DNA from: Ideonella alba
Lineage (GTDB): Bacteria; Pseudomonadota; Gammaproteobacteria; Burkholderiales; Burkholderiaceae_C
Direction: 5' to 3'
DNA length: 64,000 bases
Assembly: GCF_018069875.1 (NCBI RefSeq)
Contig: NZ_JAGQDF010000012.1
Span: 62,001 to 126,000, forward strand
The position numbers were made by a program, and so were the translations under genes. Shown piece after piece: positions 16,090 through 46,435 of the stretch (position 1 is the stretch's first letter; every line of letters begins with the position of its first letter). A model generated the notes under the pieces. That model saw only the letters and a program-made list of their open reading frames with translations, searched no databases and was not told where the DNA came from.

Positions 16090-16090
16090 C

Positions 16091-16117: not shown

Positions 16118-16139
16118 TTCGCCCCAAAGCCCAGGGTTC

Positions 16140-16203: not shown

Positions 16204-16216
16204 TTCTCTGGTCTCC

Positions 16217-16241
16217 GCTCACGTCGCTGCGCGACATGAGC
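16217..16241. repeat. Hairpin following repeat copy 2
   Basis: GCTCA and GTCGC pair with GCGAC and TGAGC, again with one internal C/A mismatch. It is the counterpart of the 16091-16117 hairpin and may act as a transcription end for metK. Confidence 0.65.
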
Positions 16242-16285
16242 GTCGCCCGCGCACAGCCAAGCCGCGCGCTGCGCGCCCGGGGGCC

Positions 16286-17467: not shown

Positions 17468-17499
17468 GGTGCTCACTGCAGAAACGGTTGCGCGGTCTA

Positions 17500-17511
17500 T
17501 CGAAGCTTCGA
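17500..17511. promoter_or_regulatory. 12-bp palindrome in the metK leader
   Basis: TCGAAGCTTCGA is a perfect palindrome 33 bp upstream of the metK ATG. It could be an operator or the tip of a leader hairpin. The 176-bp divergent gap between metK and the first lpxL gene contains no recognised riboswitch. Confidence 0.3.
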
Positions 17512-17643
17512 CCGGCTCGGCAACCTGGGTGAGCGGCGAACGCTTTAGCGGCATTTGATCAGTGCGATTCTCAGTTGAACCCCACCGGCGTGGTCTGATG
17601 AACAGCCCCGCATCGCCCCGCAAGTTGTCCTGTTAACTCGGCG

Positions 17644-31182: not shown

Positions 31183-32220
31183 TCAGGTCATCCATCGCAT
31201 CAGCCCGAGGGTCAAGGCGGCGAGGAAGGCCGTTTCGCCGACCATCAGGATGACGGGCCGCAGACCCACGGTCGCGAGCTGCTTGAGCTCGGTCTTCATG
31301 CCGATGCCGGCGATCGCGGCGACGAGGAACCAGCGCGAGCACTCGCTGCCCAGGGACTGGATGGACGTGGGAACGAATCCAGTGCTGTTGACCGCCACGA
31401 TCAGCGCGAAGGCCAGCGCGAAGCCGGGCAGCAGCGGCGGACGCGGCCCCGCTTGCGCGCCGGGCTCGGCCGCAGCCAGGCGCACCCGGGTGACGGCCGA
31501 CGCCAGCATGATCACCGGCAGCAGCATCGCGACGCGCAGCAGCTTGACGAGCGTGGCGACGTCGCCGGCCTGGCTGGACACGCTGTAGCCCGCGCCGACC
31601 ACCTGCGCCACGTCGTGGATGGTCGCGCCGAGAAAGATGCCCGCGTGGCGAGCGTCCAGCCCAAGCGATCGCACCAGCATCGGGTAGGCCACCATCACCA
31701 GCGTGGACAGCGCCGAGACGCCGATCACGGTGAACAACGTCGCGCGTTCCTTCTGCGGATGCGCCGGCAAGGCCGCTGAGAGCGCCAGCGCGGCCGAGGC
31801 GCCGCAGATGGCGGTGGCCCCACCCGTGAGCAGACCGAACAGGCCCTGGAAGCCCATTGCGCGCGCGGCGAGCATCGACAGCCCGATGGTCAGCGCCACG
31901 CACAGCAGCACCATCGCCAACGGCCCCCAGCCCAGCGCCAGCACCTGCCCGGCCGTGATGCGCAGGCCCAGCAGGGCCACGCCCGCGCGCAGCAGGCCGC
32001 GCGAGCAGAACGCAATACCGGGGCCACACGGGCCTTCGGCAGCCAGGAAGTTCATCGCCAAGCCCAGCAGCAGCGCGAACAGCAGCACCGGCGCACCGTA
32101 GTGCTGCCCCAGAAAACCTGCCGCGGCGGCGACCACGGCGCACGCCATCGCGCCGGGGAACAGCGCGCGGAGCTGTGCAGGGCTCGCGGCCCGGGCGAGT
32201 GCGTTCAGCATGTCGATCAC
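31183..32220 (-). CDS. YeiH/UPF0324-family membrane exporter
   Basis: A 345-residue integral membrane protein with about ten hydrophobic spans. It belongs to the UPF0324/YeiH family, often annotated as putative sulfate exporters. The diagnostic segments are [20 protein letters not shown] and [20 protein letters not shown]. The start is GTG at 32220 or an in-frame ATG three codons later; either lies within 12 bp of the acyl-CoA ligase stop. It is the last gene of the leftward catabolic unit and might export an anionic end product (sulfite/sulfate or a sulfonate in known cases). Its exact substrate is unknown. Confidence 0.87.
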
Positions 32221-32223
32221 AGC

Positions 32224-33852
32224 TCAGGCCGTTGGCAGACGGTGGTCCCTGAACATCTCGCGCAGCTTGTTCTTTTGCATCTTGCCGGTGGCCCCGAGCG
32301 GGATCGCATCGACGAAGACCACGTCGTCAGGCGTCCACCACCTGGCGATCTTGCCTTCGTAGAACTGCAGCAGGCCTTCGCGCGTGAGCTCGGCGCCGGC
32401 CTTGCGCATGACCACCAGCAGCGGGCGCTCGTCCCATTTCGGGTGGCGCGCGGCGATGCAGGCCGCCATCGCCACCGCGGGGTGGGCCATCGCGATGTTC
32501 TCGAGTTCGATTGAGCCGATCCACTCGCCGCCTGACTTGATGACGTCTTTGCTGCGGTCGGTGATTTGCATGAAGCCGTCCGCGTCGATGAGGGCGACGT
32601 CGCCCGTGGGGAACCAGCCTTCCCGCAGTGGGTCGCCGCCCTCGCCTTTGAAGTATTGCTGGATGACCCACGGGCCCCTGACCATCAACTCGCCCGAGGT
32701 CTTGCCGTCCCAGGCCAGTTCCTCGCCGTCCTCGCCGACGATCTTCATGTCGATGCCGAAGATGCCGCGGCCCTGCTTGGACTGGATCGCCATGCGCGCC
32801 TGCGCGTCCAGCCTCTCCTGGTGGCCTTTGAGCACGCCGACCGTGCCCAGCGGGCTCAGTTCCGTCATGCCCCAGGCATGCAGCACCGTCACGCCATAGG
32901 TCTCCTGGAAGGTCCGCATCATCGCCGGCGGGCAGGCCGAGCCGCCGATGACGGTGCGTGTCATGGAACCGAAGCGCAGCTGGTTCGCCTGGACGTGGGC
33001 CAGCAGCCCTTGCCACACGGTGGGCACGCCTGCCGAGACGGTCACCTGCTCGCTCTCGAACAGCTCGTACAGGCTCTTGCCGTCCAGGTGCGGCCCTGGA
33101 AAGACCAGCTTGGCGCCCACCATGCAGGCTGCGTACGGCAGGCCCCAGGCGTTGACGTGGAACATCGGCACCACCGGCAGGATCACGTCGCGCGACGACA
33201 GCCCGAGCGAGTCCGGCAGCGCCACCGCGTAGGTGTGCAGAACGGTGGAGCGGTGGCTGTAGAGCGCGCCTTTGGGGTTGCCCGTCGTGCCGCTCGTGTA
33301 GCACAGCGAACTGGCGCGGTTCTCGTCGAAGCGCGGCCAGTCGAAGCGGTCACTCGCGGCGTCCAGCAAGTCTTCGTAGCACAGCAAGTGGGCGATCGTG
33401 CTGCTTGCTGGCATGTGCGCGCGGTCGGTCATCAGCACGAACTGGCGCACCTGCGGCAGGTGCGGGGCGACAGCCTCGACCAGCGGCAGGAAGGTCAGGT
33501 CGAAGAACACCACGCGGTCTTCGGCATGGTTGGCGATCCAGGCCAACTGCTCGGCGTGCAGGCGCGGGTTGAGCGTGTGCAGCACGGCGCCCATGCCGCT
33601 GACGGCGTAGTACAGCTCCATGTGGCGGTGGCCGTTCCAGGCCAGCGTGCCCACGCGCTCGCCGTCGGCCACGCCGAGCGCCTTCAGCGCGTTGGCCATG
33701 CGGCGCGAGCGGGCCGCCAGCTCGCGGAAGGTCTGGCGGTGCAGGTCGCCCTCCACGCGGCGCGACACCACCTGCTGTTCGCCGTGGTGGCGCTCGGCGT
33801 GCACGAGCAGGGAAGAGATCAGCAGCGGCTGCTGCATCATTTGTCCGAGCAT
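32224..33852 (-). CDS. Acyl-CoA synthetase, medium/long-chain type (AlkK-like)
   Basis: A 542-residue AMP-forming ligase that activates a carboxylic acid with ATP and CoA. The P-loop-like motif is [28 protein letters not shown] is motif A5, [15 protein letters not shown] contains the adenylate-binding Asp, and the C-terminal lysine lies in [14 protein letters not shown]. Overall it resembles medium-chain fatty-acyl-CoA ligases. In this operon it may activate an acid from uptake or the acid released by the cleavage enzyme. Ligase, MFS, Bug and aconitase-X genes are all spaced under 110 bp in one direction. Confidence 0.9.
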
Positions 33853-33895
33853 GGGATGGGGTCCTTGACGGAGGTTGGTAGGGCGGGGCGGGCGC

Positions 33896-35164
33896 TCAAT
33901 GGGCGGGGGCGACGGATGCCGGCGCGGCGTGCAACCGGGTCCCGCGAGCCGCCAGGCCGAAGAACAGGGCTGCAGAGATCGCCAGGACGTCAGTGGCCAG
34001 CAGCGACAGCGTCAGGCCGTTGGTCGCCCCGGCAGTGTTCATCCGGTCGCTCACCGCGCCGATGGCGAGGTTGCCGATGGCGATCGCGAACACGTTGATC
34101 AGCAGCATCGCGATGCCCGTGACCGTGGATCTCACGCGGTCCGGCGTCAGCCCCTGGATCAAGGCCATCGACGGGCCGTACGTGGCCAGCGGCAGGAAGA
34201 AGCCCGCACACATGCCCACGTAGAAGAGCAGGGAGCCCGGCGTGGCGAACCGGTAGGCCAGCATCAGCGGTCCGCACAGGACGATCAGCAGCATGGCGAA
34301 GCCGGCGTGGCCGCCCCTCATGTGCCGGGCCAAACGGTCGCTGAGCACGCCGCCGACACCCGCGCCCAGGATGCCGAAGACGATTTGCAGCCCGCCGATC
34401 TGGCGCGCGATCGCGGCGGCGTCGAAGCCGCGCTCGCGCACCAGCCAGAGCTGCGAGAACGACAAGCCCGCAAACGCCATGTGCACCAGCACGAAGCCGA
34501 CGATGGTGTGCACGACCGTCGGGTTGCCTCGCAGCGAGGCCAGTGCCGCATTGATCTGCGGCAGGAAGGCCACTCCGCGGCGGGTCTCGTCGACGTTGTC
34601 TCGGCGATCTTTCAGCGCAAGCATCGGCACGCCGATCATCACCCCGACGATGCCCAGCAGGTAGAAGGTGCTCCGCCATCCTTGGGCCGCACCGAGCGTG
34701 CCGGCGAGCAGGAAGCTCAGGCCGATACCCAGCGGGATGCCCATGAAGAAGACGCCCACCGCGGTGCCCGCGCGGCGGGCCAGGAACAGCTCCACGAGCA
34801 GCGACACCGCGGCCGGCACCAGCGCCGCCTCGCCGGAGGCGACGAGGAAGCGCGCGAGCACCATCTGCTCGAAGCTCTGTGCGGCACCCGAGGCCGCGGT
34901 GCAGGCGCTCCAGATCAGGATGCCCGCGGCCATGACCCGGGTGCGGCTGAAACGATCGGCCAGGCTGCCCATGAAGACGGCCATCAGGCCATAGCTCAGC
35001 ACCCAGACCGCCCCGGCCAGGAAGCCGTACTGCGCGTTGCTGAGCGCCAGGTCCCGCGTGATCTGCGGCGAGAAGCCGAGCAGCATGTTGCGGTCGATGT
35101 GGGCGATGACGTGGATGGCCAGCAGGGCGATCAGCACGCCGTTGGGCTTGTCTTTCCAGCGCAT
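33896..35164 (-). CDS. MFS transporter
   Basis: A 422-residue major-facilitator carrier with 12 predicted membrane helices. The loop after helix 2 carries the MFS signature as GSLADRFSRTRVMAAG, and a second copy-like motif, LSDRLARHMRGGHAG, follows the cytoplasmic middle loop. It resembles carriers of organic anions. Placed between the Bug receptor gene and the acyl-CoA ligase, it is the likely importer for the compound degraded by this cluster. Start is the ATG at 35164 (MRWKDKP), which has GGAGTCC upstream. Substrate not predictable. Confidence 0.88.
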   Translation of the reverse strand: MRWKDKPNGVLIALLAIHVIAHIDRNMLLGFSPQITRDLALSNAQYGFLAGAVWVLSYGLMAVFMGSLADRFSRTRVMAAGILIWSACTAASGAAQSFEQMVLARFLVASGEAALVPAAVSLLVELFLARRAGTAVGVFFMGIPLGIGLSFLLAGTLGAAQGWRSTFYLLGIVGVMIGVPMLALKDRRDNVDETRRGVAFLPQINAALASLRGNPTVVHTIVGFVLVHMAFAGLSFSQLWLVRERGFDAAAIARQIGGLQIVFGILGAGVGGVLSDRLARHMRGGHAGFAMLLIVLCGPLMLAYRFATPGSLLFYVGMCAGFFLPLATYGPSMALIQGLTPDRVRSTVTGIAMLLINVFAIAIGNLAIGAVSDRMNTAGATNGLTLSLLATDVLAISAALFFGLAARGTRLHAAPASVAPAH

Positions 35165-35271
35165 GACGGACTCCTGGGGTCGTGGGGCGGTGCCGGGCGG
35201 CATCGCATGGTGCGCTGCCGCCCGTCGGTGTCTGAACGGGGACGGTGAAGGGGCCTGGCGGCCCGCCCTCG

Positions 35272-36279
35272 TCAGTCGGGCTTGAAGCCGATGGCCTTCA
35301 ACATCGCGGCCTGGCGGTCCGACGCGGCGCGCAGCGAGGCGACCAGCTCATCAGGCGTGGCGCCGGATCCCAGGCCCCAGCCCATCGTCGAGACGAAGGT
35401 CTCGCGCACCTTGGGATCCTGCAGGATCTTGAGGGTCTCGTCGCGCATCCTCTGCTGGATGTTGGCAGGCACGCCGGCGGCGGCCCACAAGCCAGCCCAT
35501 GCCGTCTCGGTGAGTTCCTTGTAGCCCAGCTCCGCGAACGTGGGCACGTCGGGGAACGACACCAGGCGCTGCGGCGCCGTGGTGGCCAGCACCTTCAGCT
35601 TGCCCGCCTTCGCGAACGGCTGCACGTTGCTCGACGCGTCGAACATGGCTTGCACCTGCCCGCCCATCAGGTCCTGCAGCGCAGGCGGCGAGCCCTTGTA
35701 TGGCACGTGCAACATGTCCAGACCGGCCAATTTGTTGAGCTCCAGGCCCAGCGTGTGCGACACCGTGCCCGCGCTGTAGGACGCGAAGTTGACCTTGCCC
35801 TTGTTCGCCTTGGCATAGGCAATGAAGCCTGCCAGATCGTTACCGGGCACCTGCAGATGCGTGGTCAGGACCAGACCGTAGGTGGCGAGCTGGACCAGCG
35901 GACGGAAGCTGGTCATCGGGTCGAACGGCATCTTCACCGCATGCGGGATCTCGGACGCGAACCCGTTGATCATGACCATGAAGGTCGAGCCGTCGCGCGG
36001 CGACTTGAGCACCTCGGCGGCCCCGATGATGCCCGCGGCGCCGGGCCTGTTCTCGACGATGACCTGTTGGCCCAGCGCCGGCGACAGGCGCTCGGACAGG
36101 ATGCGCGCTACCTGGTCCAGGCCGCTGCCGGCCGGCGACGGGACGATCAGGCGGATGGTCTTTTCGGGCCAGGTCTGAGCGGCGGCGGCTGGCGCGAGGA
36201 GGCCCAGCGTCGAGCCGATCGCGGTGGCGAAAGCCGCGCGGTGGAACATGCGACGGCCGAGGTGATGGAACTGCTTCAT
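35272..36279 (-). CDS. Bug/TctC-family periplasmic solute receptor (orphan)
   Basis: A 335-residue periplasmic binding protein of the Bug (TctC) family, which is greatly expanded in Burkholderiales and binds carboxylates and related small molecules. The signal peptide ends near AAAAQTWP (residue 35). Hallmarks are IRLIVPSPAGSGLDQVARI, VENRPGAAGIIGAAEVL and MLHVPYKGSPPALQDLMGG. No tctA or tctB membrane genes accompany it, so it must pair with a distant TTT permease or act as a chemosensor. Its place directly after the aconitase-X genes suggests that it recognises the pathway substrate. Confidence 0.93.
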   Translation of the reverse strand: MKQFHHLGRRMFHRAAFATAIGSTLGLLAPAAAAQTWPEKTIRLIVPSPAGSGLDQVARILSERLSPALGQQVIVENRPGAAGIIGAAEVLKSPRDGSTFMVMINGFASEIPHAVKMPFDPMTSFRPLVQLATYGLVLTTHLQVPGNDLAGFIAYAKANKGKVNFASYSAGTVSHTLGLELNKLAGLDMLHVPYKGSPPALQDLMGGQVQAMFDASSNVQPFAKAGKLKVLATTAPQRLVSFPDVPTFAELGYKELTETAWAGLWAAAGVPANIQQRMRDETLKILQDPKVRETFVSTMGWGLGSGATPDELVASLRAASDRQAAMLKAIGFKPD

Positions 36280-36363
36280 GGTCTTGTCTCCTTGATGGCG
36301 GGGGGCCTGCGACCCGGACCGTTGCCGGGCCGTCGAGGCCGTTCCTCTGTCCTTGTCTACGTC

Positions 36364-37704
36364 CTATCGAGCCCAGCGCGATGGTGTGTAGCGGCCCGTC
36401 ACAGCAGCGTTGATCAGCTCGGGAAGGCTCGCGAAGATCAGGCTGTGGCCGAGGCCTCCGAAGATCTTGATCTGCTTGAAGCTGCTTGTGGCCACGGTGA
36501 AGTTGCTGCCCCAGTCCTTGCTGAGCATGTTCATGCCGGCGCAGGTCTGGTGATAAATCTTGCCGCCTGCGTCCTCGATGATCTTGGCTTCGCCGTAGTG
36601 CTTGGCCATGTTGTACGACGGCGTGTCGGTCTGCGCCCACATCATCACGTCGGGGTGAACCTTTTTGCCCTCGATCGCACGCGCGATCATCCGGATTTCC
36701 TCGTAGGTCAGGTGCGGGCAGCCCATGTGCACGATGTCGACCTTGTCGGTCTTGGCGGTGCGCAGGTGCTCGTAGACCGCACGGACGTCGGCCAGCGTGA
36801 TGGGGATGCGCTCGACATTGGCCGGCACCGCACCGCCGAAGGCCTGCTCCAGCGTGTCGGATCCCGGCGTGATGCCGATGAGGTGGAGCATGGGGTCGTT
36901 CATGCCGGGCGACGCGCAGGCCGTCAGGGCCTTGGCTGCGGAGGTCGTGAGCCGGTCCGGCATGTTGGTCACAGCCGGGATGCCGCGGTTGTTGACCTTC
37001 ATCGCGATGGCACCGCCGAGCGCCGCCCAGTCGGCCGGGTCGTCCACGATGTGTTGCTTGATCTCGTCGGCCAGATCGAAGATCACCTTCGGGCGCCGGT
37101 TCTCTTCCAGCAGCATGCCGTATTTCGGCAGCACGCCGGCATAGGCGGCGTACATGCCGGTGACCGCGTTCTCGCGGTTGGTCTTCACGCCCATGATGGT
37201 GTTCAGGTAGGCGGCGCAGCTCGATTCGCACGAGGCCGCGTATTCGCCGCGCTTCGGGCTAACGGTGTTGAACTGCGGCGTGCACGAGTGCGTGGGCACC
37301 CAGCCCGCGTCCTTCATCGCCTCGTAGCCGCGCACCGACGCTTCGTGCACGATCTTCGGCAGCTTGTAGTACTTGTTGTTCCAAGGCGTGCCGGGTTCGT
37401 CGAAACGGTCGAGCTGGTGCAGGAACGGGTCGGTCGAGCACGTCACGCGCGGGTCGTCGGTCACCTTGGCGCCCATCTCGAACAGCGGCTCGAGCTGCAG
37501 GCCCTGGCCCCACTCGAACTGCTGGTACTCCGGCGTGTCGCGCGGCAGGTCTTTGACGCAGCCGATGTAGTGCACGAAGGTCAGCGGCACCATCTCCTCG
37601 GCGCCCACCGCACGGCCGAAGTCGACCAGCTTCTCCATCGCGAAGCGCTTGCCCTTGCCGTGCTTGCCTTCGAGCATTTCCTGTTCGTAGGTATTGAGTC
37701 TCAT
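36364..37704 (-). CDS. Aconitase X, large catalytic subunit (DUF521)
   Basis: A 446-residue protein of the aconitase-X catalytic family. Characterised relatives dehydrate cis-3-hydroxy-L-proline or mevalonate 5-phosphate and use an Fe-S cluster. The matching core is THSCTPQFNTVSPKRGEYAA, followed by SSCAAYLNTIMGVKTNRE, which corresponds to the family's C-P-Y...P-x-x-G-E...E-S-S-A...N-S...G-A-R-T-N-R-E. Several Cys residues (positions near 51, 91 and 147-170) are available as cluster ligands. It begins 17 bp after the small subunit, the usual two-gene form. The true substrate here is unknown but should be a hydroxy-carboxylate. Confidence 0.9.
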   Translation of the reverse strand: MRLNTYEQEMLEGKHGKGKRFAMEKLVDFGRAVGAEEMVPLTFVHYIGCVKDLPRDTPEYQQFEWGQGLQLEPLFEMGAKVTDDPRVTCSTDPFLHQLDRFDEPGTPWNNKYYKLPKIVHEASVRGYEAMKDAGWVPTHSCTPQFNTVSPKRGEYAASCESSCAAYLNTIMGVKTNRENAVTGMYAAYAGVLPKYGMLLEENRRPKVIFDLADEIKQHIVDDPADWAALGGAIAMKVNNRGIPAVTNMPDRLTTSAAKALTACASPGMNDPMLHLIGITPGSDTLEQAFGGAVPANVERIPITLADVRAVYEHLRTAKTDKVDIVHMGCPHLTYEEIRMIARAIEGKKVHPDVMMWAQTDTPSYNMAKHYGEAKIIEDAGGKIYHQTCAGMNMLSKDWGSNFTVATSSFKQIKIFGGLGHSLIFASLPELINAAVTGRYTPSRWAR

Positions 37705-37721
37705 GATCGTCTCCTTGAGGT

Positions 37722-38168
37722 TCAGGCGTTCGCCGCGCGATGACGCGTGACGGTCACGGTGGCGGGCTTGCCGACTTCGTCGGCGACGATCTCGACCCAG
37801 TCGCCGGACTGGATGACTTCCAGCGGATCCGCATTCAGGCCGTCGATGGCGGGGATGTCGCTGGCGATGGCACCTGCGATGTCGATGTAGTGCACGTCGC
37901 GGCAGATCAGCGCCTTTGGTCCGGTGTGCGCTTCCTTGACCTTGAACAGCAGGCCGAACGATCCCGAGGTCGACCCGGTCACCGTCGGGTAGACGACGAT
38001 CTTGTCCTTGACGCTCTGGCCGTTGAGCTTGTTGCCGAAGGCGCGGATCGTGCCGTCGTTGACAACGGAGCAAGGCGCCCAGCTGAGGTTCATGTCGCAG
38101 ACCAGGGCTTCGCCCGCGGTCCGGCCCTTGGAACGGGCAGTTCCGGTGTACGTGTGTTTCTGTTCCAT
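37722..38168 (-). CDS. Aconitase X, small swivelling-domain subunit (DUF126)
   Basis: A 148-residue protein matching the DUF126 swivelling domain that pairs with the DUF521 subunit. Conserved parts are GEALVCDMNLSWAPCSVVNDG, in the family pattern of an active-site loop (shown here without further context), VVYPTVTGSTSGSFGLLFKV and a late ALICRDVHYIDIAGAIASDI. The Ser/Thr-Gly-Ser loop is the expected cofactor or substrate site. It is the first gene of the leftward operon, with a strong AGGAGA ribosome site, and starts 170 bp from the divergent AraC-type gene. Confidence 0.9.
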   Translation of the reverse strand: MEQKHTYTGTARSKGRTAGEALVCDMNLSWAPCSVVNDGTIRAFGNKLNGQSVKDKIVVYPTVTGSTSGSFGLLFKVKEAHTGPKALICRDVHYIDIAGAIASDIPAIDGLNADPLEVIQSGDWVEIVADEVGKPATVTVTRHRAANA

Positions 38169-38308
38169 CGTCTCGTCTCCTTGTCGCGAGTCGTCGGTGC
38201 TGGGGCGGCCGGCGCGTGCTGGCCCTTGCGGTCGGCGGGCCGCTCGAAGCGGCAACCACCGAAGGCCGCATTGAAGACGCTGGGAGCTCCGTTCACATGT
38301 AGGATTGC

Positions 38309-38336
38309 GACAAGTAGTTGAAAAACAGTGACAACT
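38309..38336 (+). promoter_or_regulatory. Candidate AraC-family binding site
   Basis: GACAAGT (38309) and GACAACT (38330) form a direct repeat with 21-bp spacing, two helical turns, which is the spacing seen at araI half-sites. It lies in the divergent promoter region and ends just before the regulator's ATG, so autorepression is plausible. Confidence 0.45.
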
Positions 38337-38337
38337 G

Positions 38338-39333
38338 ATGACCCAACTAACCCGCAGTGCCGGCTTGTCCGGGTTCTCGGATCTGGTCAGCGGCTACGGG
38401 CTGGACCCGGTTGAACTGGCAGCGCAGGCGCGCCTGCCCGCCCAGGCACTGACGCAGCCGGACCTGCTCGTGGCGGCCAGCAGCGTGGCCACCTTGCTGG
38501 ATCTCGCCGCGGCCCGCACCGGCGTCGAGGACTTCGGCCTGCGACTGGCCGACAAGCGGCGCATGTCCAACATGGGCCCGATGGCGCTGCTCGCGGGCAT
38601 GCAGCCGTCCTTGCGCCAGATGCTGGCCGTGGTCTGTCACTACCAGTCGCTGAACATCGGCCCGTTGTCGCTCTTGGTTGAGGAAGAGGGCGACGTCGCC
38701 GTCCTCCGCGGCAACATCGACCTCGCGGACCGCGTGGGCTCGCGGCAGGTCAGCGAGCTCATCTTCGGCGGTCTGTGCCGCTACATCCAGGCCGTGATGC
38801 AGACGGGCTGGCGGCCGCGTTCGGTGATGTTCCGCCACCTGCCGCCGCGAGGCCCGACCATGCATCGCGACCTGTTCCGCTGCTCTCCTGCCTTCCGGGC
38901 AGACTTCGATGGCCTCGTGCTGGCGCGTTCCGACCTGGACGTGGCCTTCGACGCGCCCGACCCCGTGCTGCTGAGCTACCTGCAGGACCACATCGACCAG
39001 TTGATCCGCGGTCGGGCACGCTCGATCAGCGAGGAAGTCGGTGAAGTCATCGTGGCTTTGCTGCCCACCGGACAGTGCAACGCCGACGCGGTAGCGGCGC
39101 ATCTGGGCATGACGCGGCGCACGCTTCATCGGCGCCTGGCCGACGCGTCGACGAGCTTCCGCCAGTTGATGGAGGACAAGCGCCTGATCCTCGTCACGAC
39201 CTACCTCGGTGGCCATCGCAAGCACAGTGAGATCGCTGAACTCGTCGGACTGAATTCGGCCAGCGGGCTGTCCCACTGGATGCGTCGGCACTCGGTGACG
39301 CCGCCGCCGCGCACCCGCCGCCGTTTGCGTTGA
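38338..39333 (+). CDS. AraC-family transcription regulator
   Basis: A 331-residue regulator with an N-terminal 'arabinose-binding-like' domain of the OruR/ArgR type (about 15-190) and a C-terminal AraC DNA-binding domain (about 225-331). The first helix-turn-helix reads VAAHLGMTRRTLHRRLADAS, and the second sits around HSEIAELVGLNSASGLSHWM. It lies between the leftward aconitase-X operon and the rightward cleavage-enzyme operon, so it is the natural activator of both. The effector is probably the pathway substrate. The start is the ATG at 38338, right after the candidate binding repeat. Confidence 0.92.
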   Translation: MTQLTRSAGLSGFSDLVSGYGLDPVELAAQARLPAQALTQPDLLVAASSVATLLDLAAARTGVEDFGLRLADKRRMSNMGPMALLAGMQPSLRQMLAVVCHYQSLNIGPLSLLVEEEGDVAVLRGNIDLADRVGSRQVSELIFGGLCRYIQAVMQTGWRPRSVMFRHLPPRGPTMHRDLFRCSPAFRADFDGLVLARSDLDVAFDAPDPVLLSYLQDHIDQLIRGRARSISEEVGEVIVALLPTGQCNADAVAAHLGMTRRTLHRRLADASTSFRQLMEDKRLILVTTYLGGHRKHSEIAELVGLNSASGLSHWMRRHSVTPPPRTRRRLR

Positions 39334-39547
39334 CGTCGAGTCATCTGAGGAGATCGGGATATCCCGAGTGTGTCCCGAAAATGCACTCGCATGTCCCGGG
39401 TTTGCATCTCCTGGAACGCGAGCGCCGAAGAATCTCCCCTGCCGATCGGACATGCGGCGCACGCATCGGCACCGCGGCGGACCCTGCCCAACGACGCAGG
39501 GCCCGCCCGCAGGTTTCCGGCACCCGCTCACCCCAAGGACAACCGCC

Positions 39548-40603
39548 ATGCATTTCCTCGACGACTCGCTGTTTCCCGAGAATCAGCAACCCCTGGTGAT
39601 CCAGGTCGCTCCGTACGGCCCCGAATTCCTGCCCGGCGACTCCGACGACATCCCGGTGTCCATGGACGCGCAGATCCAAAAGGCCGTCGACTGCTACAAC
39701 GCTGGCGCCACAGTGCTGCACGTGCACGTGCGCGAGGAAGACGGCAAAGGCAGCAAGCGGCTGTCGAAGTTCAACGAGATGCTGGCCCGGTTGCGCGAAG
39801 CCGTGCCGAAGATGCTGCTGCAGGTGGGCGGCTCGATCTCCTTCGCGCCCGAGGGCGAAGGCGCCGGGGCCCAGTGGCTGAACGACGACACGCGGCACAT
39901 GCTGGCCGAGCTCACGCCGAAGCCCGATCAGGTCACGATCGCGATCAACACCAACCAGATGAACGTCTGCGAACTGATGAGCGCCGACGACGTGGCCGGC
40001 ACCTCGCTGGCGCTGCCGGCCTACCAGGCGGCCTACAGCGAGATGACCATCCCGTCTGGCCCGGCCTTCGTCACCGAACACCTCAGGCGCCTGCAGGCCA
40101 AAGGCATCCAGCCGCACTTCATGCTCGGCGACGTCGGCCAGCTCGAGACCGTGGAGCGCCTGATTCGCCGTGGCCACTACCACGGCCCGCTGGTGCTCAA
40201 CCACGTGATGATCGGGGGCGGCATGGACGGCCCCAACCCCACCAACATGCTGGAGTTCATTCGCCGCGTGCCGACCGGTGCCGTGCTGACCATCGAGGGC
40301 ATCATGCGCACCGTGCTTCCGCTGAACGCCATGGCCATTGCGATGGGCCTGCATGTGCGCGTTGGCATCGAGGACAACCTGTGGGGCCGCAAGGGTGAAC
40401 GCATCACCAGCGTCCAGCAGGTCGAGCAGATGGTTCGCATCGCGCGCGAGCTGTATCGCGAGGTGGCCACCGGCGAACAGGCGCGAGAGATCTACCAGAT
40501 CGGCACGCAGTACCGCAGCACGGACGAGACACTGGCCAGGCTCGGCTACTCGCCCAATCGCCAGCCCGGCGAACGTGGTGCACCGATGCTTCGAGCCGCA
40601 TGA
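39548..40603 (+). CDS. Beta-keto acid cleavage enzyme (BKACE, DUF849)
   Basis: A 351-residue member of the DUF849/BKACE family. Known members cleave a beta-keto acid with acetyl-CoA to acetoacetate and a new acyl-CoA. The zinc-binding HVHVRE (His58, His60) follows GATVLHVH at the end of an early strand of the TIM barrel. LNHVMIGGGMDGPNPTNML and VRVGIEDNLWGRKGERITS hold the later barrel motifs. It is longer than the founding lysine-pathway enzyme (about 275 residues), so it is probably a different specificity subgroup. It starts the rightward operon 214 bp after the regulator and overlaps the SDR gene (ATGA). Confidence 0.92.
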   Translation: MHFLDDSLFPENQQPLVIQVAPYGPEFLPGDSDDIPVSMDAQIQKAVDCYNAGATVLHVHVREEDGKGSKRLSKFNEMLARLREAVPKMLLQVGGSISFAPEGEGAGAQWLNDDTRHMLAELTPKPDQVTIAINTNQMNVCELMSADDVAGTSLALPAYQAAYSEMTIPSGPAFVTEHLRRLQAKGIQPHFMLGDVGQLETVERLIRRGHYHGPLVLNHVMIGGGMDGPNPTNMLEFIRRVPTGAVLTIEGIMRTVLPLNAMAIAMGLHVRVGIEDNLWGRKGERITSVQQVEQMVRIARELYREVATGEQAREIYQIGTQYRSTDETLARLGYSPNRQPGERGAPMLRAA

Positions 40604-41433
40604 GCGCCGCTCGACTGGCCAGCCGCGTGGCCCTGATCACCGGGGCCGGCCGCGGCCTCGGCGGGACGATCGCACGCGCCTATGCCCGCGAGGGTGCTCG
40701 CCTCGTGCTCTGCGACCTCGACACCGAGGCGCTCGACGAGACCCGCGCTGCCGTCACGGCGCTCGGTGCCGAGTGCCTGGCCCTGCGCTGCGACGTCTCG
40801 GACCGCGCCGCGGTCGATGCGATGTTCGAGCAGGCCGGCAACCGATTCGGCACCGTCGACATCCTCGTGAACAACGCTGCCCGCGTGCCGGGCTCGCCCG
40901 AGGAGGCCGAGCGCCGCAACAGGCATTACGCCTACGCCACCACGCCAGTGCCGCGCCGGTCGCTGGGCATCGTCGCGTCGCTCAGCGACGACGACTGGCT
41001 CAAGTGGTGGGGCGTCAACATGCATGGCGTGTTCTGGTGCACGCGCGCGGCATTGCGCTTCATGGAGCCGCAGCGCTCGGGCCAGATCATCAACGTGGCC
41101 TCGGTGTCCGCGCTGGGTGCTGCCAGCGTGCACAGCCCGGGCTACTCGGCCAGCAAGGCCGGCGTGATCAGCCTGACCCGGACAACGGCCTACGACGTCG
41201 CCGGCGCCAACATCTTCGTCAACGCGATCGCCTGTGGTGGCGTGATGACGCCGCCCTTCGAGGCCTACCTCGCCGCCGCCACCGAGGCCCAGCGCAACAG
41301 CCTGTTCCAGATGGTCCCGGCGGGGCGCCTCGGCGCGCCCGAGGAATACGCCAACGTCGCGGTCTTCCTTGCGGCCGGTGGGCACTATCTGGTCGGGCAG
41401 GTCATCAGCCCGAACGGCGGCATGGTGATCTGA
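40600..41433 (+). CDS. SDR-family dehydrogenase
   Basis: A 277-residue classical short-chain dehydrogenase. The cofactor motif TGAGRGLG is at 14-21, with Asp in LVLCDLD suggesting NAD(H). NNAA follows, and the catalytic Tyr182/Lys186 lie in YSASK, with the partner Ser in NVASVSALG. An insertion of some 25 residues after NNAARVPGSP (to about 125) is larger than usual and may shape the substrate pocket. Its ATG overlaps the cleavage-enzyme stop. It should oxidise a hydroxy acid to the beta-keto acid used by that enzyme; this is inferred from context. Confidence 0.92.
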   Translation: MSAARLASRVALITGAGRGLGGTIARAYAREGARLVLCDLDTEALDETRAAVTALGAECLALRCDVSDRAAVDAMFEQAGNRFGTVDILVNNAARVPGSPEEAERRNRHYAYATTPVPRRSLGIVASLSDDDWLKWWGVNMHGVFWCTRAALRFMEPQRSGQIINVASVSALGAASVHSPGYSASKAGVISLTRTTAYDVAGANIFVNAIACGGVMTPPFEAYLAAATEAQRNSLFQMVPAGRLGAPEEYANVAVFLAAGGHYLVGQVISPNGGMVI

Positions 41434-41786
41434 TGCCCGCCCCGATCCCGTTGATCGCACTCAGCGCGCTGCCGGTCGGCCGAGGCCTGCGGGTCTGCCG
41501 CGACGGGCTGGACCTGGCGGTCTTCAGGGTCGGTGATTCCGCGTACGCCGTCGACGACTCCTGCCCCCATGCCGGCGCCTCGCTCGCCAATGGCAGGCTG
41601 AGTGGGACGCGTGTGCGCTGCCCGGTGCATGGGCTGACGTTCGAGCTCGATCCGGCATGCCCTCCGGGCCCACCCATGCTGCAAGCCAGGAAGCATGCCG
41701 TTCGAGTCATCGACGGCGTGGTGATGCTGGAGCTGCCCGATGCTGTGCAGGATGTTGGCGCCGACGTGGAACGCCAGCTGCGATAG
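41433..41786 (+). CDS. Rieske-type [2Fe-2S] ferredoxin
   Basis: A 117-residue soluble Rieske protein. The cluster ligands are Cys44, His46 (CPHAG) and Cys63, His66 (CPVHG), with 16 residues between the pairs. The size and lack of a signal peptide fit an electron-transfer component of an oxygenase or an assimilatory reductase. No oxygenase gene is in the cluster. Its start shares one base with the SDR stop (TGATG), so it belongs to the same operon. It might supply electrons to an oxygenase encoded elsewhere that makes the hydroxy acid, but this is speculative. Confidence 0.9.
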   Translation: MPAPIPLIALSALPVGRGLRVCRDGLDLAVFRVGDSAYAVDDSCPHAGASLANGRLSGTRVRCPVHGLTFELDPACPPGPPMLQARKHAVRVIDGVVMLELPDAVQDVGADVERQLR

Positions 41787-42167: not shown

Positions 42168-43172
42168 TCAACGCCCCACCCGTCGCCCGCGCTCCCAGGC
42201 CTGCAGCCGCTGGCGCCAGGCCTGCAGCGCCTTCTCGGGGTGGGCGTCGGCAATCGCCGCCAGGCGCTCCAGCAGGGCCTGCTGTTCGGCGTCCGGGTGT
42301 GACGGGAAGGTGGGCTCCACCGTGACCAGGTAGTCGCCGCGCTCGGCGCTGCCGCGCGCCAGAGGAAAGCCCTGGCCGGGCAGGCGGTAGACCAGGCGGC
42401 CGCGGCGCAGGCGCATCTGTTGCAGGCCGGTGGGGGCAGGCACCTCGATCCATTGCTGGGCCAGCCAGGCAAAGCCGTCCACCGGCAGCTGGCAGCGCAG
42501 CGTGCCGTCGTCGCTCCACTGGAACAGCGGGTGCGGGGCCAGCTCGATGCGCAGCTCCAGCCGGCCATCGAAGCCGCCGCGGTGCCGTCCGCCGCCGTCG
42601 GCCATCAGCACGTCGCCCTGGCGCAGGCCGGCCGGCAGGCGCACGCTGCAGCGGTAGCGCCAGGTCTGCTGGCCGGCGCCGTCGCAGGTGGGGCAGCTGG
42701 TCTGTCGCTGGCCGCTGCCCTGGCAGTCGGCGCAGGCCTTGTCGGTGGCCGGCCAGGCCAGCCACCAGTCCTGGCGCTGCCGGCCGCTGCCGCGGCAGCT
42801 GGGGCAGGGCTGCGGCTCACCCAGCACGCCGCGGCCGTCGCAGGGCAGGCAGGGGTCGACCAGGCGGCCGCGCAGGTCGCGCGTGGCGCCTTGCACGGCC
42901 TCTTCGATGGACAGGCGCACGCGGCGGCGCACCACGCGGCCCTCTGCGGCCGACGTTGCAGGGGCCTGATCGGCCTCATCCACCGGCGCCAGCGTGGCCA
43001 GGCGGATGCGCTCATAGGCGCCGTTGATGCGCTGGATCAGTGCCGCGGCCTCGGCCGACGCATTGCGGTCCGGGTGCCAGCGCGACACCATCCGCCGCCA
43101 GGCCTGCTTGACCTCAGCGTCGGTGGCGCCGGGCGCCAGGCCCAGTTCGACGTAGGCGTCGTCGATGCTCAC
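42168..43172 (-). CDS. DnaJ-family co-chaperone (type I, cytosolic)
   Basis: A 334-residue J-protein. The J domain (1-60) has HPD at 33-35. A short linker replaces the usual Gly/Phe-rich region. Four CxxCxGxG zinc motifs begin at Cys109, Cys124, Cys148 and Cys161, and a C-terminal substrate domain runs to about 290. It is therefore a type I DnaJ but shorter than canonical DnaJ (about 375), with no G/F region, and is probably a specialised paralogue. The start is a GTG (43172) with GGGGGGA 7-8 bp upstream. dnaK is not nearby. Confidence 0.9.
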   Translation of the reverse strand: MSIDDAYVELGLAPGATDAEVKQAWRRMVSRWHPDRNASAEAAALIQRINGAYERIRLATLAPVDEADQAPATSAAEGRVVRRRVRLSIEEAVQGATRDLRGRLVDPCLPCDGRGVLGEPQPCPSCRGSGRQRQDWWLAWPATDKACADCQGSGQRQTSCPTCDGAGQQTWRYRCSVRLPAGLRQGDVLMADGGGRHRGGFDGRLELRIELAPHPLFQWSDDGTLRCQLPVDGFAWLAQQWIEVPAPTGLQQMRLRRGRLVYRLPGQGFPLARGSAERGDYLVTVEPTFPSHPDAEQQALLERLAAIADAHPEKALQAWRQRLQAWERGRRVGR

Positions 43173-43457
43173 GTTTCATCCCCCCTGCAGCAACAGCGGG
43201 CATTGTCGCTGCTGCGTCAGGGAGTCGGCGGGCGCTGTGGGGGCCGTGGTGTCGGCGCCGCTGGCGGCGATTTGCCACCCGCGTGTGCTGCGGTGGGGAT
43301 TCTTCGAGCGCCGGCCGCCGATGCGGGCGGCGTCCCACGCTATCGGCCCAGCCTGATCACCAGGGCCACCTGAGCAGAGACCACAAGCGCGTGCCTGTAC
43401 TGCGACCGTGACGGCGAGGCCCTGCGCGCAGCGCATCAGCCCCGACCCCTCCCGGCC

Positions 43458-44486
43458 CTACAACTGCCGCGCCAGCGCCTTGCAGTCGTCGTAGGTGCGA
43501 TCGGGCGTGCCGCCCCAGAAGCGGCGCACGTAGCTGCCGTTGAGCAACCGCAGCTGTTCCTGCAGGGCGTCGCGGTCCTGGGCCATGCAGGCGAAGTAGG
43601 CGTAGGCGTTGCGGTGGTCGACGTGCGGGTGGCGTGACAGACGGTCCTCGAAGCCGGCTTTCATGGACGGCCACGAGGCACGGGTGGCGCTGAACAGCCG
43701 CTGCTTCACCTCCCGGTCGCTGAGCTCGCTGTAGAGCCGCGCGTACATCTCCAGGCCGCGGGTGTCGCGCGTCGCCTGTGCCGCCCGGGCAATGAAGCGT
43801 TCGATGATGTCGACGCTGCCGCCCCAGCGGGGCAGCATGGTCGTGAGCATCTCGACGTAGAGCTCGTCATGGTCGGGGTTCCTGGCGATGCCGTTGTCGA
43901 AGATCGGCATCAGGCGCGCGTGGCCCAGACCCAGGCCGCGGCCGACCTGGATCACCATCAGGTTCCACGAACTGTCCTGGGCCAGCAGGGTTTCGTGGCG
44001 CTGCAGTTGCTCGAAGGACCGTTTCAGCAGGGTCTCGAAGCGCGGCAGCGCCGTGCTCGAGACGGTCTCGTAGGTGCCGGTGCCGCGCACATACCACGCG
44101 TGCTGCCGCAGAACCTGCGCGTGCAGCAGCTGAGCCATCGCGGATTGGGGGTGGGCCTGGGCCCACTGCTGGGTCAGCAGGTCAAGCTGGGTGAAGTAGC
44201 CCTCGCTGACAGGCAGGTCGTCGTCGCTGATCGACTCGACGCCCCGCCAGAACTGCGTGACCAGCTCGGTCCCGGTCTGTGGTGCGCGCGCGCCTGGTCG
44301 GGCGGCGCTGGCGTACAGACGCTCCAGCGCGGCGAAGTCGCCAAAGCGCAGCGCCTCGCGCGCCTGGTCCCGCACCGAAACCGCCGGTGCGGTGGGCTGG
44401 GCGTGGCTCATTGCAGCGAGGCTCAACAGGCCCGTGGCCAGCAGGGCGCGCAGGCAGCGCAGGCCGTCAACGTGCACCACGTTCAT
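43458..44486 (-). CDS. Exported DUF4034-like protein
   Basis: A 342-residue protein with a signal peptide ending near AMSHAQPT (residue 30). The mature part is mostly helical. The central AWYVRGTGTYETVSSTALPR, followed by a run of tetratricopeptide-like helices (HARLMPIFDNGIARNPDHDE), resembles the DUF4034 family, whose function is unknown. Its ATG lies 20 bp inside the end of the TonB-domain gene, so the two are translated together. It probably acts in the periplasm with that protein. Confidence 0.65.
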   Translation of the reverse strand: MNVVHVDGLRCLRALLATGLLSLAAMSHAQPTAPAVSVRDQAREALRFGDFAALERLYASAARPGARAPQTGTELVTQFWRGVESISDDDLPVSEGYFTQLDLLTQQWAQAHPQSAMAQLLHAQVLRQHAWYVRGTGTYETVSSTALPRFETLLKRSFEQLQRHETLLAQDSSWNLMVIQVGRGLGLGHARLMPIFDNGIARNPDHDELYVEMLTTMLPRWGGSVDIIERFIARAAQATRDTRGLEMYARLYSELSDREVKQRLFSATRASWPSMKAGFEDRLSRHPHVDHRNAYAYFACMAQDRDALQEQLRLLNGSYVRRFWGGTPDRTYDDCKALARQL

Positions 44487-45645
44487 CTCCCTCGAGTTTC
44501 CAGACGAACTCCAGACGCACCTCCTGCTCTGGCTGGGCGCTGAAGCGGCGCTCGCGCATCTTCGCCAGTGCGGCGCCGTCGAGCAGCGCTTCGAAGGCCA
44601 GCGGCCGGTGGTCGCGGATGCCCGGCACGCGGATGTTGCGTGCCACCACCTCGGCGCGCTGCACCTGGCCTTGCGCGTCCACCCGGGCGCGCACGGTGGT
44701 GCTGCCCTGCACGCCGAAGTGGCGCGCGGCGCGCGGGTAGCTGCTGTCGCCGCTGGTGTCGGCCTTCACCTGCTCAGGCAGCAGTTCCTCGACATCCGGC
44801 AGCAGCGAGTAGCGGAACACCTGCAGCGCCTTGGCGCGGTCGGTGCCGGGGGCGGCCAGCTGGGTCTGCAGCCACCACTGGCTGATCGCGCAGCGTTCCC
44901 GGCGGTCCGGCGCGTCGGGCCGCCGATCTCGTGCAAACACCATGCGGGCCAGGAAGGGCGTCATGGGCGCGGCCGTGACCGGCAGGCCCTCGCGCAGCTG
45001 TGCGGCGGCCTGCGCCCCAGCCAGCAGGTCGGCATTGGCCGGGCGTGGGGGCAGGTCCGACCGCGTCGTGCCCCAGCGCGCCAGCAGGGCCTGTTCGGCG
45101 GCGAGCAGCGCGGGCCGCACCTCCGCCGGCGCGGCCTGGACGATGGCGATGCGGCGCGCATAGAACAGCGGCTCATGGGTCTGGCAGGCGGTGGGCGCGA
45201 GCGCGGCCTGCAACCAGGCCTCGTCATGCGCCGGGCCGGTGCTCTCGACGAAGCCGATCAGCAGTTCGTTGACCGAGCGCAGCAGCAGCGCCTGGGTCAG
45301 CGCCGACCCGCGCAGCGCCGGATCCCGCTGTGCCGCGCGCTCCTCGGCGATCCAGGTGGGCACCATCGTCCTCAGGCGGCGAGACAGCGCCTGGGTCGAT
45401 TCGCTCACGCTGGCACGCAGCGCCGGGTCCAGCGCCATGCTGCCGGGCAACAGCATCTCGCGCTCGGTCCACTCCACGATGTGCTGGACCACGTCGGCGT
45501 CATACTCGGCCATCAGCGCCTGGGCCGTGGGGGCCTTGCTGGTGGCGCCGGGGGCCGTGTTGGTCGCCGCCAGGGCGCCGGTGGCACTCGCCGCCACCAC
45601 GCCACTCAGCAGGAGCCATCGCCCCTGAGTGATCACCCGCCGCAT
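44467..45645 (-). CDS. Exported protein with C-terminal TonB-like domain
   Basis: A 392-residue exported protein with a signal peptide near residues 1-26. The first 270 residues are a helical region I do not recognise. The last 110 (from about SSYPRAARHFGVQGSTTVRA) have the beta-alpha-beta pattern of the TonB C-terminal energy-transducing domain, including YPxxAxxxGxxGxVxxxxxVxxxGxV. Unlike TonB it lacks a membrane anchor plus Pro-rich spacer, so it is not a classical energy transducer. It is the upstream partner of the DUF4034-like gene, overlapping by 20 bp. Confidence 0.65.
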   Translation of the reverse strand: MRRVITQGRWLLLSGVVAASATGALAATNTAPGATSKAPTAQALMAEYDADVVQHIVEWTEREMLLPGSMALDPALRASVSESTQALSRRLRTMVPTWIAEERAAQRDPALRGSALTQALLLRSVNELLIGFVESTGPAHDEAWLQAALAPTACQTHEPLFYARRIAIVQAAPAEVRPALLAAEQALLARWGTTRSDLPPRPANADLLAGAQAAAQLREGLPVTAAPMTPFLARMVFARDRRPDAPDRRERCAISQWWLQTQLAAPGTDRAKALQVFRYSLLPDVEELLPEQVKADTSGDSSYPRAARHFGVQGSTTVRARVDAQGQVQRAEVVARNIRVPGIRDHRPLAFEALLDGAALAKMRERRFSAQPEQEVRLEFVWKLEGDERGAR

Positions 45646-45736
45646 CGCTGCCCTCCCAGGCCGTTGAGCTCGTTGGTCTGCGAGCCATCATAGCGGCGGG
45701 CGACCCGAGGCGCGCCCGGGCCCCCGTCCACGCCGC

Positions 45737-46291
45737 TCAGCCTTCGTTCTGCGACAGCCGCCCATTCGCCGCCAGCCGCACCCGCCGCACATTCGCCGGC
45801 TGGTTGATGCGCCAGGGGCAGCGCCGCGCCTGCAGCAGGCGGTCGCGGCCCAGGCGCTTGATGCTGACGCGGTCGTCCTGGTTGCCGCCCAGCACGTGGA
45901 AGGCGCTGTCGTCCTCGCCCACGTAGACGCCCACATGGCCCTGGAAGCCGTTGCGCGCGCCGCGCCAGAAGACCAGCACGTCGCCCAGCATCGGCGTGTC
46001 TGCCGGGTTGCCCCAGGCCTGCCAGTTGCGGGCCATCAGGGCGTTGCCGCGGGGCGCGTTGTCCCAGCCGGCCTGGCCGGCCACATAGGCCAAGGCCAGG
46101 CCGCACCAGGCGGTGGCGTCGTCGCGGTAGACACGGTCCAGGCCGATGCTGCGGGCCCAGTCCAGGATCGTGGGGTTGGAGCCGGGGCCCAGGTCTTCGG
46201 CGGTGCCGAAGATCTTCAGGAACTCCTTGAGCAGGCGCGGGCCGGGTTCGGCGTCGAGCCAGGCGTAGGCGGCGGGAAGCGGCGTCGGCAT
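45737..46291 (-). CDS. TIGR02594-family NlpC/CHAP-like peptidase domain protein
   Basis: A 184-residue protein of the TIGR02594 family, which has a cysteine-peptidase-like (CHAP/NlpC) fold. The likely catalytic Cys63 is in TAWCGLALAYVAGQAGW and His119 in GFQGHVGVYVGE. The end, LGGNQDDRVSIKRLGRDRLL, is diagnostic. Relatives occur in phage lysins and peptidoglycan-acting effectors. Here there is no signal peptide or phage context, so it may be a domesticated cell-wall enzyme. Start at 46291 follows AAGGAGA; the longer form to 46318 is less likely. Confidence 0.8.
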   Translation of the reverse strand: MPTPLPAAYAWLDAEPGPRLLKEFLKIFGTAEDLGPGSNPTILDWARSIGLDRVYRDDATAWCGLALAYVAGQAGWDNAPRGNALMARNWQAWGNPADTPMLGDVLVFWRGARNGFQGHVGVYVGEDDSAFHVLGGNQDDRVSIKRLGRDRLLQARRCPWRINQPANVRRVRLAANGRLSQNEG

Positions 46292-46435
46292 GGGGTCTCC
46301 TTCGGCGTGCGCGGGCATCGGCCCGCCGAACGAGGATAGCCAGCCGCCTGCACGGCCTCAAGCGGCCCGCGGGCCCCAAGCTGCTGCGATCGTGGGGGGC
46401 GGCGCGGTGCCGTGTCTGCGTGCGGGCTCAGCCGC

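Follow-up and report, generated by a model that had tools for sequence, protein, structure and literature searches.

A 64,000-nucleotide stretch of the Ideonella alba genome (contig NZ_JAGQDF010000012.1, positions 62,001 to 126,000; hereafter the window) carries at positions 31183-41786 a cluster of ten genes, in which a two-subunit aconitase X (AcnX) on one strand faces a DUF849-family enzyme and a short-chain dehydrogenase/reductase (SDR) on the other, with a gene for an AraC-family regulator between them. The explanation that we favour, with somewhat less than even confidence, is that these genes form one AraC-controlled, horizontally acquired module in which AcnX, the SDR and the DUF849 enzyme would catalyse consecutive steps, most likely on an organosulfonate. 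The observations behind it are the gene content, the recurrent neighbours, an operator-like motif, the active-site residues and the clade structure. An earlier sequence-only reading had described a ten-gene catabolic cluster here; family profile matches place all ten genes in the order it gave, and the genes are probably co-regulated. Their grouping looks more than fortuitous, in that both arms recur together in a Hyphomicrobiales metagenome-assembled genome (MAG; locus L012), the same operator-like motif precedes each arm, and the GC content of the cluster is 0.678, compared with 0.722 in the 20 kb to its left and 0.716 in the 20 kb to its right.

How might these proteins act together? The reactions, the direction in which AcnX works and the substrate are proposed here from sequence. 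The substrate would be taken up by the Bug receptor or the MFS carrier, and the two-chain iron-sulfur (Fe-S) AcnX would interconvert the CoA-free acids R-CH=CH-COO- and R-CH(OH)-CH2-COO-. The SDR would then oxidize the 3-hydroxy acid to a 3-keto acid, and the Zn-dependent DUF849 enzyme would convert this and acetyl-CoA to acetoacetate and an acyl-CoA by retro-Claisen cleavage or, its catalytic tyrosine being missing, would carry out a related reaction, for instance transfer of the acetyl group. A product acid would be re-activated by the ligase, sulfite or an anion like it would leave the cell through the YeiH-like protein, and electrons would be carried by the Rieske protein. Known AcnX enzymes, as described in the accessible text of the papers concerned, are dehydratases of 3-hydroxy acids (PMC8184944, PMC5144071), and an SDR and a DUF849 enzyme are both needed for the use of deoxyribonate (PMC6365646). 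The earlier proposal that the SDR supplies the keto group, between AcnX and DUF849, is chemically sensible, and the pairing of SDR and DUF849 has this genetic precedent. Deoxyribonate catabolism in P. simiae and Burkholderia resembles the window in its SDR gene beside DUF849, its MFS carrier and its logic of 3-hydroxy to 3-keto acid, whereas AcnX, YeiH and Rieske proteins are not mentioned in the accessible part of that report; the comparison covers gene content and reaction logic. No paper joining AcnX with DUF849, or with the glycyl radical enzyme considered below, was found in the literature searched, outside which most subscription papers fall, and the claim that the AcnX-DUF849 combination is undescribed stands to that extent.

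The minus-strand arm runs in the order acnX small subunit, acnX large subunit, Bug receptor, MFS carrier, ligase and YeiH-like exporter, and on the plus strand the DUF849, SDR and Rieske genes touch or overlap in an operon-like manner (Table 1). The sequence-only reading was right about the aconitase X gene, but the protein consists of two separate chains, and the 635-residue open reading frame at 36364-38271 is a frame artefact; the small subunit (UPF0107) also goes by the label DUF126. For the DUF849 gene, the start codon is the ATG at 39548, in agreement with the N-terminus of its relatives. The ligase exceeds the equivalog cut-off of NF005426, 3-(methylthio)propionyl-CoA ligase, a name that is not specific here because two broader long-chain ligase subfamilies also passed. 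A sigma-70 promoter scan (0 sites, 0.7 expected) and a terminator scan (7, 4.2 expected) were uninformative, and a tRNA scan of the whole window found none.

Table 1. Genes and proposed operators of the AcnX-DUF849 cluster (positions are those of the window)
Feature	Position	Strand	Evidence
YeiH-like inner-membrane anion exporter	31183..32220	-	PF03601 203.5 bits (cut-off 24.5); diverges from TIGR00698
Acyl-CoA ligase, AMP-binding	32224..33852	-	NF005426 995.4 bits vs cut-off 822
MFS carrier	33896..35164	-	PF07690; 50% identity to the L009 carrier
TctC/Bug periplasmic solute receptor	35272..36279	-	PF03401 194.5 bits; 60% identity to the L097 receptor
Aconitase X large subunit (P0002), rare clade	36364..37704	-	PF04412 336.8 bits vs gathering 31.5; alignments to 7cnr and 7d2r; residue table, tree
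Aconitase X small subunit (P0003), UPF0107	37722..38168	-	Aligned to TK1248 (7cnr_B) and AF0055 (2hi6)
Proposed AraC operator upstream of acnX, TGTC direct repeat, 21-bp period	38307..38333	-	Repeat; enrichment upstream of araC homologues
AraC-family regulator, Arabinose_bd + HTH_18	38338..39333	+	Best NCBIfam match QhpR, 133.3 vs cut-off 250
Second proposed AraC operator, upstream of the DUF849 arm	39371..39397	+	TGTC direct repeat
DUF849/BKACE-family Zn enzyme (P0011), Met192/Gly194 subtype	39548..40603	+	PF05853 227.4 bits vs gathering 24.8 (scored on the longer frame from 39368)
SDR dehydrogenase	40600..41433	+	PF13561/PF00106
Rieske [2Fe-2S] ferredoxin	41433..41786	+	PF00355 47.1 bits vs 20.3

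We noted that a TGTC direct repeat with a period of 21 bp lies upstream of both acnX and DUF849, and that its TGTCNC form occurs nowhere else in the 64 kb; because the same repeat precedes each arm, the two arms probably belong to one regulon. We looked for such repeats in the 300-bp regions upstream of 37 araC homologues. Among 4-mers repeated at 20-22 bp, a spacing picked after the sites of the window had been seen, TGTC/GACA ranked first (13 regions, compared with 1.1 expected and a maximum of 4 in 300 simulations). When all 4-mers at spacings of 8-40 bp were compared, TGTC at 21 bp was again first, in 10/37 regions (the best pair of 60 simulated sets reached 8), and it was followed by AATG, TCCC and GTCC, all at 21 bp; none of the 37 control regions, which lay at a distance of 600-900 bp, contained the TGTC pair at that spacing. 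These statistics are indicative, because the null model was a first-order Markov chain and the homologues are related. A scan with the half-site pattern TTGTCRC, allowing up to three mismatches, gave 7 sites with 12.4 expected, neither site of the window among them. The repeat looks like a putative operator of a QhpR-like AraC subfamily.

The surroundings of the cluster suggest that it arrived from elsewhere. The acnX genes have the lowest GC content among the genes measured (0.641-0.642). No close AcnX was found in any of the 15 other genomes of the genus searched, one of which has a 31% relative. The glmS gene is present in 16/16 genomes of the genus, including that of the window, and in the stretches around it, compared in ten of the fifteen other genomes, the order asnC-glmS is kept in 10/10. 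Beyond glmS, the only match of at least 70 bits to a cluster protein in these stretches was one to the ligase (28%, in L136); since the stretch L135 stops 1.9 kb beyond glmS, nine stretches are informative, and all nine lack the cluster. We infer horizontal acquisition from these comparisons.

Which neighbours does AcnX keep elsewhere? A pattern scan of an 84,980-species collection gave 26 candidate stretches, six of them with true relatives, although a scan with a single protein may miss distant ones. In sampled genomes, AcnX was found in 1/399 of the order (E up to 1e-70) and in 1/398 of the phylum (E up to 1e-60), in both cases the genome of the window itself, and in 3/297 from the phylum of the genome carrying locus L014 (that genome, G652 and G714). 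Nine AcnX loci were compared: the window, L009 (Pseudomonas sp. N040; 84% identity), L010, L011, L012, L013, L014, L055 and L056. Eight of the nine proteins form one clade (support 100/100) and L056 lies outside it under midpoint rooting; the window, L009 and L010 group together (99/98), as do L012, L013, L014 and L055 (100/100), and the placement of L011 is uncertain. The commonest partner is an oxygen-sensitive glycyl radical enzyme, at 5/9 loci (L009, L010, L013, L014 and L055), followed by a PFK-like protein (4/9), an SDR of at least 40% identity (3/9) and a YeiH-like protein (3/9); in these counts the L013 stretch spans only 5.2 kb, and two distant DUF849 genes in L011 (28-29%) fall below the counting threshold. 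Both arms are present in L012 (identities of 81% for DUF849, 58% for the SDR, 54% for the YeiH-like protein, 51% for the Rieske protein and 49% for AcnX), together with an AraC gene. In L009, AcnX and the SDR again stand beside YeiH-like, MFS and AraC genes, and three members of the DUF849 subfamily are encoded on other contigs of that genome. The two DUF849-linked AcnX proteins belong to different subclades, that of the window being sister to the radical-enzyme-linked L009 and that of L012 to the radical-enzyme-linked L013, L014 and L055, which fits either two couplings that arose separately or a single old one followed by losses.

The radical enzyme of L009 finds its nearest PDB entries in 5ymr (812.8 bits), the isethionate sulfite-lyase 7kq3 (774.2) and 6lon (757.2). 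Two of the five radical enzymes were scored against NF048011, sulfopropanediol dehydratase (cut-off 1000), and reached 1004.5 bits (L014) and 998.6 bits (L009). The sulfonate contacts of the isethionate lyase IslA include Arg189, Gln193 and Arg678, as given in the accessible text (PMC8473560). Among the AcnX-linked enzymes, Arg678 and a histidine at position 374 are found in 5/5 and the Arg189/Asn193 site in 4/5 (the L013 piece lacks this region), and the CxE motif shared with the isethionate and sulfopropanediol lyases is kept where readable. Because Arg189 and Arg678 are kept whereas Gln193 is replaced by Asn and Trp374 by His, we regard the radical enzyme as a near relative of the sulfonate lyases with an active-site signature of its own.

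These relatives carry further genes near AcnX. Beside the radical enzyme and AcnX stands a PFK-family protein with the motif SxEND (L009:14963-16087, L010:20250-21329, L014:14444-15601 and L055:3838-4995), where the usual motif of the family is TxDND. In L010, the interval from AcnX to the PFK-like gene holds a sulfatase (PF00884) and an alkyl-sulfatase-like gene (PF14863/PF14864), together at 15019-19293, and the radical-enzyme gene is split into two overlapping frames (6870-9400); the one in L013 contains a stop, and either may be assembly error or decay. A two-gene thiamine pyrophosphate enzyme resembling sulfopyruvate/phosphonopyruvate decarboxylase, below cut-offs, follows the ligase in L012 (14994-16404), and the genome of L012 also encodes a true sulfoacetaldehyde acetyltransferase (Xsc; 962 bits). 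Bile-acid-symporter-like carriers occur near AcnX or DUF849 in L014 (13464-14318) and L097 (3914-4795) by Pfam match, and in L055 (1-582) and L056 (6715-7734) by eye. In L011 (11359-15641), from a Desulfarculus MAG, a 2-hydroxyglutaryl-CoA dehydratase-type protein (PF06050) comes after AcnX, and the two distant DUF849 genes and a TRAP-type carrier, the latter recognized by eye, come before it. At L009:18735-18926, next to the cluster, a piece matching residues 217-280 alone of a TauD-like protein (83%) is a sign of past rearrangement.

The DUF849 subfamily is more widespread, occurring in 16/398 genomes of the phylum (E up to 1e-90) and in 24 plasmid records (E up to 1e-40). We compared 37 DUF849 loci (14 plasmid, 17 from sampled genomes and 6 others), which are not independent and one of which (L103) spans only 5.4 kb, counting neighbours within 10 kb by bit-score thresholds of our own choosing. 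The commonest were AraC (29), TauD-like (27), MFS (26), serine hydrolase (23) and QOR (22) genes, followed by YeiH-like (13), Bug (11), CMD (9), ligase (8) and Rieske (8) genes, and by SDR (4), SulP (3) and acetoacetate-CoA ligase (2) genes. TauD-QOR-DUF849-MFS-serine hydrolase operons, known from Pseudomonadota and Actinomycetota, share with the window the DUF849 subfamily and the AraC type, and some include YeiH-like, Rieske and Bug genes, but the window has AcnX and an SDR in place of TauD, QOR and the hydrolase, and its DUF849 protein is of the Met192 rather than the Gln192 subtype. A described function for this operon was not found in the literature searched, most subscription papers lying outside it. 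One such operon, in Caballeronia grimmiae (L092:6038-11998), is followed by a Rieske gene and methylcitrate-cycle genes, a hint of a propionyl-CoA product there.

Position 192 of 40 DUF849 proteins is Met in 7, Gln in 32 and Ala in 1, and it separates the loci by their neighbours within 8 kb. The Met group (the window, L012, L048, L049, L095, L096 and L097) has an SDR gene at 4/7 loci, QOR at 0/7 and TauD at 2/7, whereas the Gln group has an SDR at 0/32, QOR at 23/32 and TauD at 27/32 (Fisher p = 0.0004, 0.0007 and 0.007, respectively, uncorrected for kinship); YeiH-like genes do not differ (p = 0.69). The SDR and QOR may be interchangeable between loci. In Kce, position 192 is a Glu that contacts the amino group of the substrate, so that an amino substrate is unlikely here. 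The SDR of the window is 76% identical to that of L097, 58% to L012, 54% to L048 and 44% to L009. The nearest version of the module that lacks AcnX is L097, from the window's own family (DUF849 72%, SDR 76%, YeiH-like 62% and Bug 60%, together with TauD).

The sequence-only reading overlooked the hints of a sulfonate and the partners that are usual elsewhere, TauD in the case of DUF849 and the radical enzyme in that of AcnX. Because the same AcnX or DUF849 has a TauD-like dioxygenase or a glycyl radical enzyme as its partner in relatives, a shared substrate class is suggested, most likely organosulfonates. First, the family of the radical enzyme is suggestive of sulfonates, though no proof. 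Second, so is the YeiH-like exporter, found at 13/37 loci, far above the background given 49 places over the PF03601 cut-off in 100 sampled whole genomes, although four of the 13 loci come from one family and the weakest matches are those in L116 (30%) and L087 (36%; annotated as YeiH). YeiH is the primary sulfite-resistance factor of Salmonella in vitro, according to the accessible text (PMC12880088).

Several observations weigh against the proposal of one organosulfonate module. The YeiH-like protein of the window scores 110 bits against TIGR00698, compared with a cut-off of 232.6, no C-S cleaving enzyme was recognized in the cluster, and no true Xsc was found in the genome (best 314 bits, compared with 676), so that a sulfoacetaldehyde/Xsc route is rejected for it. 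The genome has no match to the radical enzyme, which itself departs from IslA at positions 193 and 374, and no TauD-like gene was found in the 25 kb examined. The DUF849 protein has Gly194 at the catalytic-tyrosine position, on which HMMER alignments to 2y7d, 8rio and 9zsc all agree. The sequence-only reading had proposed looking for DUF521 genes within 10 kb of DUF849; the SDR and AraC genes do recur with the pair in L012, but the pairing occurs at 2/9 AcnX loci (the window and L012) and 2/37 DUF849 loci, and is not standard. As to the operator, two sites of the TGTCNC pattern, which was written after the fact, are not rare in 64 kb (19/100 shuffles reach that number), so that it is their placement that speaks; and in the control regions CGGC at 36 bp reaches 12/37, so that base composition is needed to read the raw counts.

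The same regulon and the same order of AcnX, SDR and DUF849 could also serve a sulfur-free substrate, with the TauD-like protein of relatives as a beta-hydroxylase, of which gamma-butyrobetaine hydroxylase is an example, and the YeiH-like protein exporting another anion. We regard this as possible though doubtful. It accords with the bit scores of three TauD-like proteins (238, 212 and 230, compared with a taurine-dioxygenase cut-off of 313), which leave taurine unsupported as their substrate; with those of five YeiH-like proteins, none of which reaches the cut-off of TIGR00698; with a dehydrogenase, SDR or QOR, beside many DUF849 genes; with the lack of Xsc; and with deoxyribonate as the sulfur-free precedent (PMC6365646). 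The YeiH-like genes and the SulP carriers at 3/37 loci argue against it, as does a radical enzyme related to sulfonate lyases at five of the nine AcnX loci. Alignments of the TauD-like proteins do not discriminate, because the Arg and His that we take to line the sulfonate site of TauD also occur in PlaO1. On balance, a sulfonate is slightly ahead of a sulfur-free acid.

What the DUF849 enzyme does is a second point of doubt. The earlier reading had it cleave a beta-keto acid with acetyl-CoA to acetoacetate; the family match (PF05853) and the Zn ligands His58, His60 and Glu275, present in 40/40 proteins, agree with this, and the ligands are those (His, His, Glu) given for BKACE enzymes (PMC12871164). 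The accessible text of the same paper describes the catalytic tyrosine (Tyr145 in Kce, Tyr173 in PdKce) as common to all BKACE sequences. At this site the 40 proteins have Tyr (11), Thr (11), Gly (8), Ala (5), Ser (3), Gln (1) and Val (1); with Tyr in 11/40, either the universal statement fails for this subfamily or many members do other chemistry. Cleavage to acetoacetate is thus plausible but, because Gly194 replaces the tyrosine, not secure. BsfD of flavophos synthesis, a DUF849 protein in which the tyrosine position is likewise changed (Phe166), acetylates a phosphonate-bearing keto acid (PMC12871164, accessible text), and the window enzyme could similarly transfer an acetyl group to the 3-keto acid, with decarboxylation, or do other chemistry, AcnX then taking its product, or an intermediate formed in parallel, as substrate. 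We consider this unlikely, in spite of the agreement of three alignments on Gly194: tyrosine persists in some members at an otherwise mixed site that may simply be relaxed, acetoacetate-CoA ligase, expected for cleavage, occurs at 2/37 loci, and BsfD is distant (68.9 bits), belongs to a biosynthetic cluster and has a shorter loop after beta3 (9zsc) than the window protein. Some BKACE enzymes also act on malonate semialdehyde (PMC11961710, accessible text), so that small substrates are possible.

It is very improbable that the two arms are separate pathways that merely adjoin: 35/37 DUF849 loci have no AcnX of the clade within 10 kb and 7/9 AcnX loci no DUF849 of the subfamily, but the operator-like repeat is common to both arms, they recur in L012 with SDR, Rieske, YeiH-like and AraC genes, and with 20 DUF849 places in 398 genomes a chance adjacency at two of nine loci is very unlikely.

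Least credible of all is that the window AcnX is a cis-3-hydroxy-L-proline or mevalonate-5-phosphate dehydratase, a reading that the shared family (PF04412) favours and that its score against NF051439, the hydroxyproline type (142 bits, cut-off 700), the replacement of the archaeal Tyr365 by Ile414 in a stronger stretch of alignment and, more softly, its changed contact residues disfavour; the hydroxyproline-like substrate guessed at by the sequence-only reading is not supported.

The large subunit of the window AcnX keeps the Fe-S cysteines C141, C329 and C388 as well as E160, S161, S162 and K410, and the small subunit keeps the GST motif with the catalytic serine (TK1248 and AF0055 alignments), whose role in catalysis is described in the accessible text of PMC8184944. 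With the hydroxyproline type the window enzyme shares family, the catalytic Ser, Glu and Lys, and two of the Fe-S cysteines. It differs from that type in its separate subunits (as in type IIa), its third, archaeal-type cysteine and an additional Lys413, found in 8/8 clade members where L056 has Arg and L005-L008 have His, Asn, Phe and Asn; no hydroxyproline gene was recognized among the ten. The archaeal type IIb, mevalonate-5-phosphate dehydratase, resembles it in its two chains, its three cysteines and the equivalents of Glu129, Ser130, Ser131 and Lys361, but acts outside the bacterial catabolic context of the window. Asp203, which binds the amine in the A. tumefaciens enzyme, and Ile206, both contacts according to the accessible text of PMC8184944, correspond to Ile47 and Val50 in a stretch of only 8.9 bits, and the archaeal phosphate-loop residues Val49 and Ser50 to Cys49 and Val50 in one of only 7.7 bits; these losses are apparent, and the argument from contacts is soft because of such weak local alignment. 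The window AcnX belongs to a rare clade and does not look like the hydroxyproline type.

To the right of the cluster, DnaJ_C, DUF4034, TonB_C-like and CHAP-like genes (the last below cut-off) occupy 42168-46318; the stretches around glmS in other genomes of the genus (nine of the ten informative) showed none of them.

A more far-reaching idea, and one we would call improbable, is that the clade represents a third functional class of AcnX, acting on organosulfonates, which feeds a glycyl radical C-S lyase in anaerobic settings and on two independent occasions entered regulons in which the breakdown of the same sulfonated 3-hydroxy acid is completed by an SDR and a tyrosine-less DUF849 enzyme. 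If so, 3-hydroxy-4-sulfobutanoate would suit all three enzymes, with acetoacetate and sulfite as products of the lyase, and with either sulfoacetyl-CoA or an acetylated sulfonate as that of the DUF849 route. The AcnX subclasses IIc-IIf are without assigned function in the accessible text of PMC8184944. The clade may be one of these, or a further one, and it brings testable substrates and a regulator with it. The proposed module would also tie the widespread TauD/DUF849 operon to a substrate class, and would caution against annotating DUF849 genes that lack the catalytic tyrosine as acetoacetate-forming cleavage enzymes.

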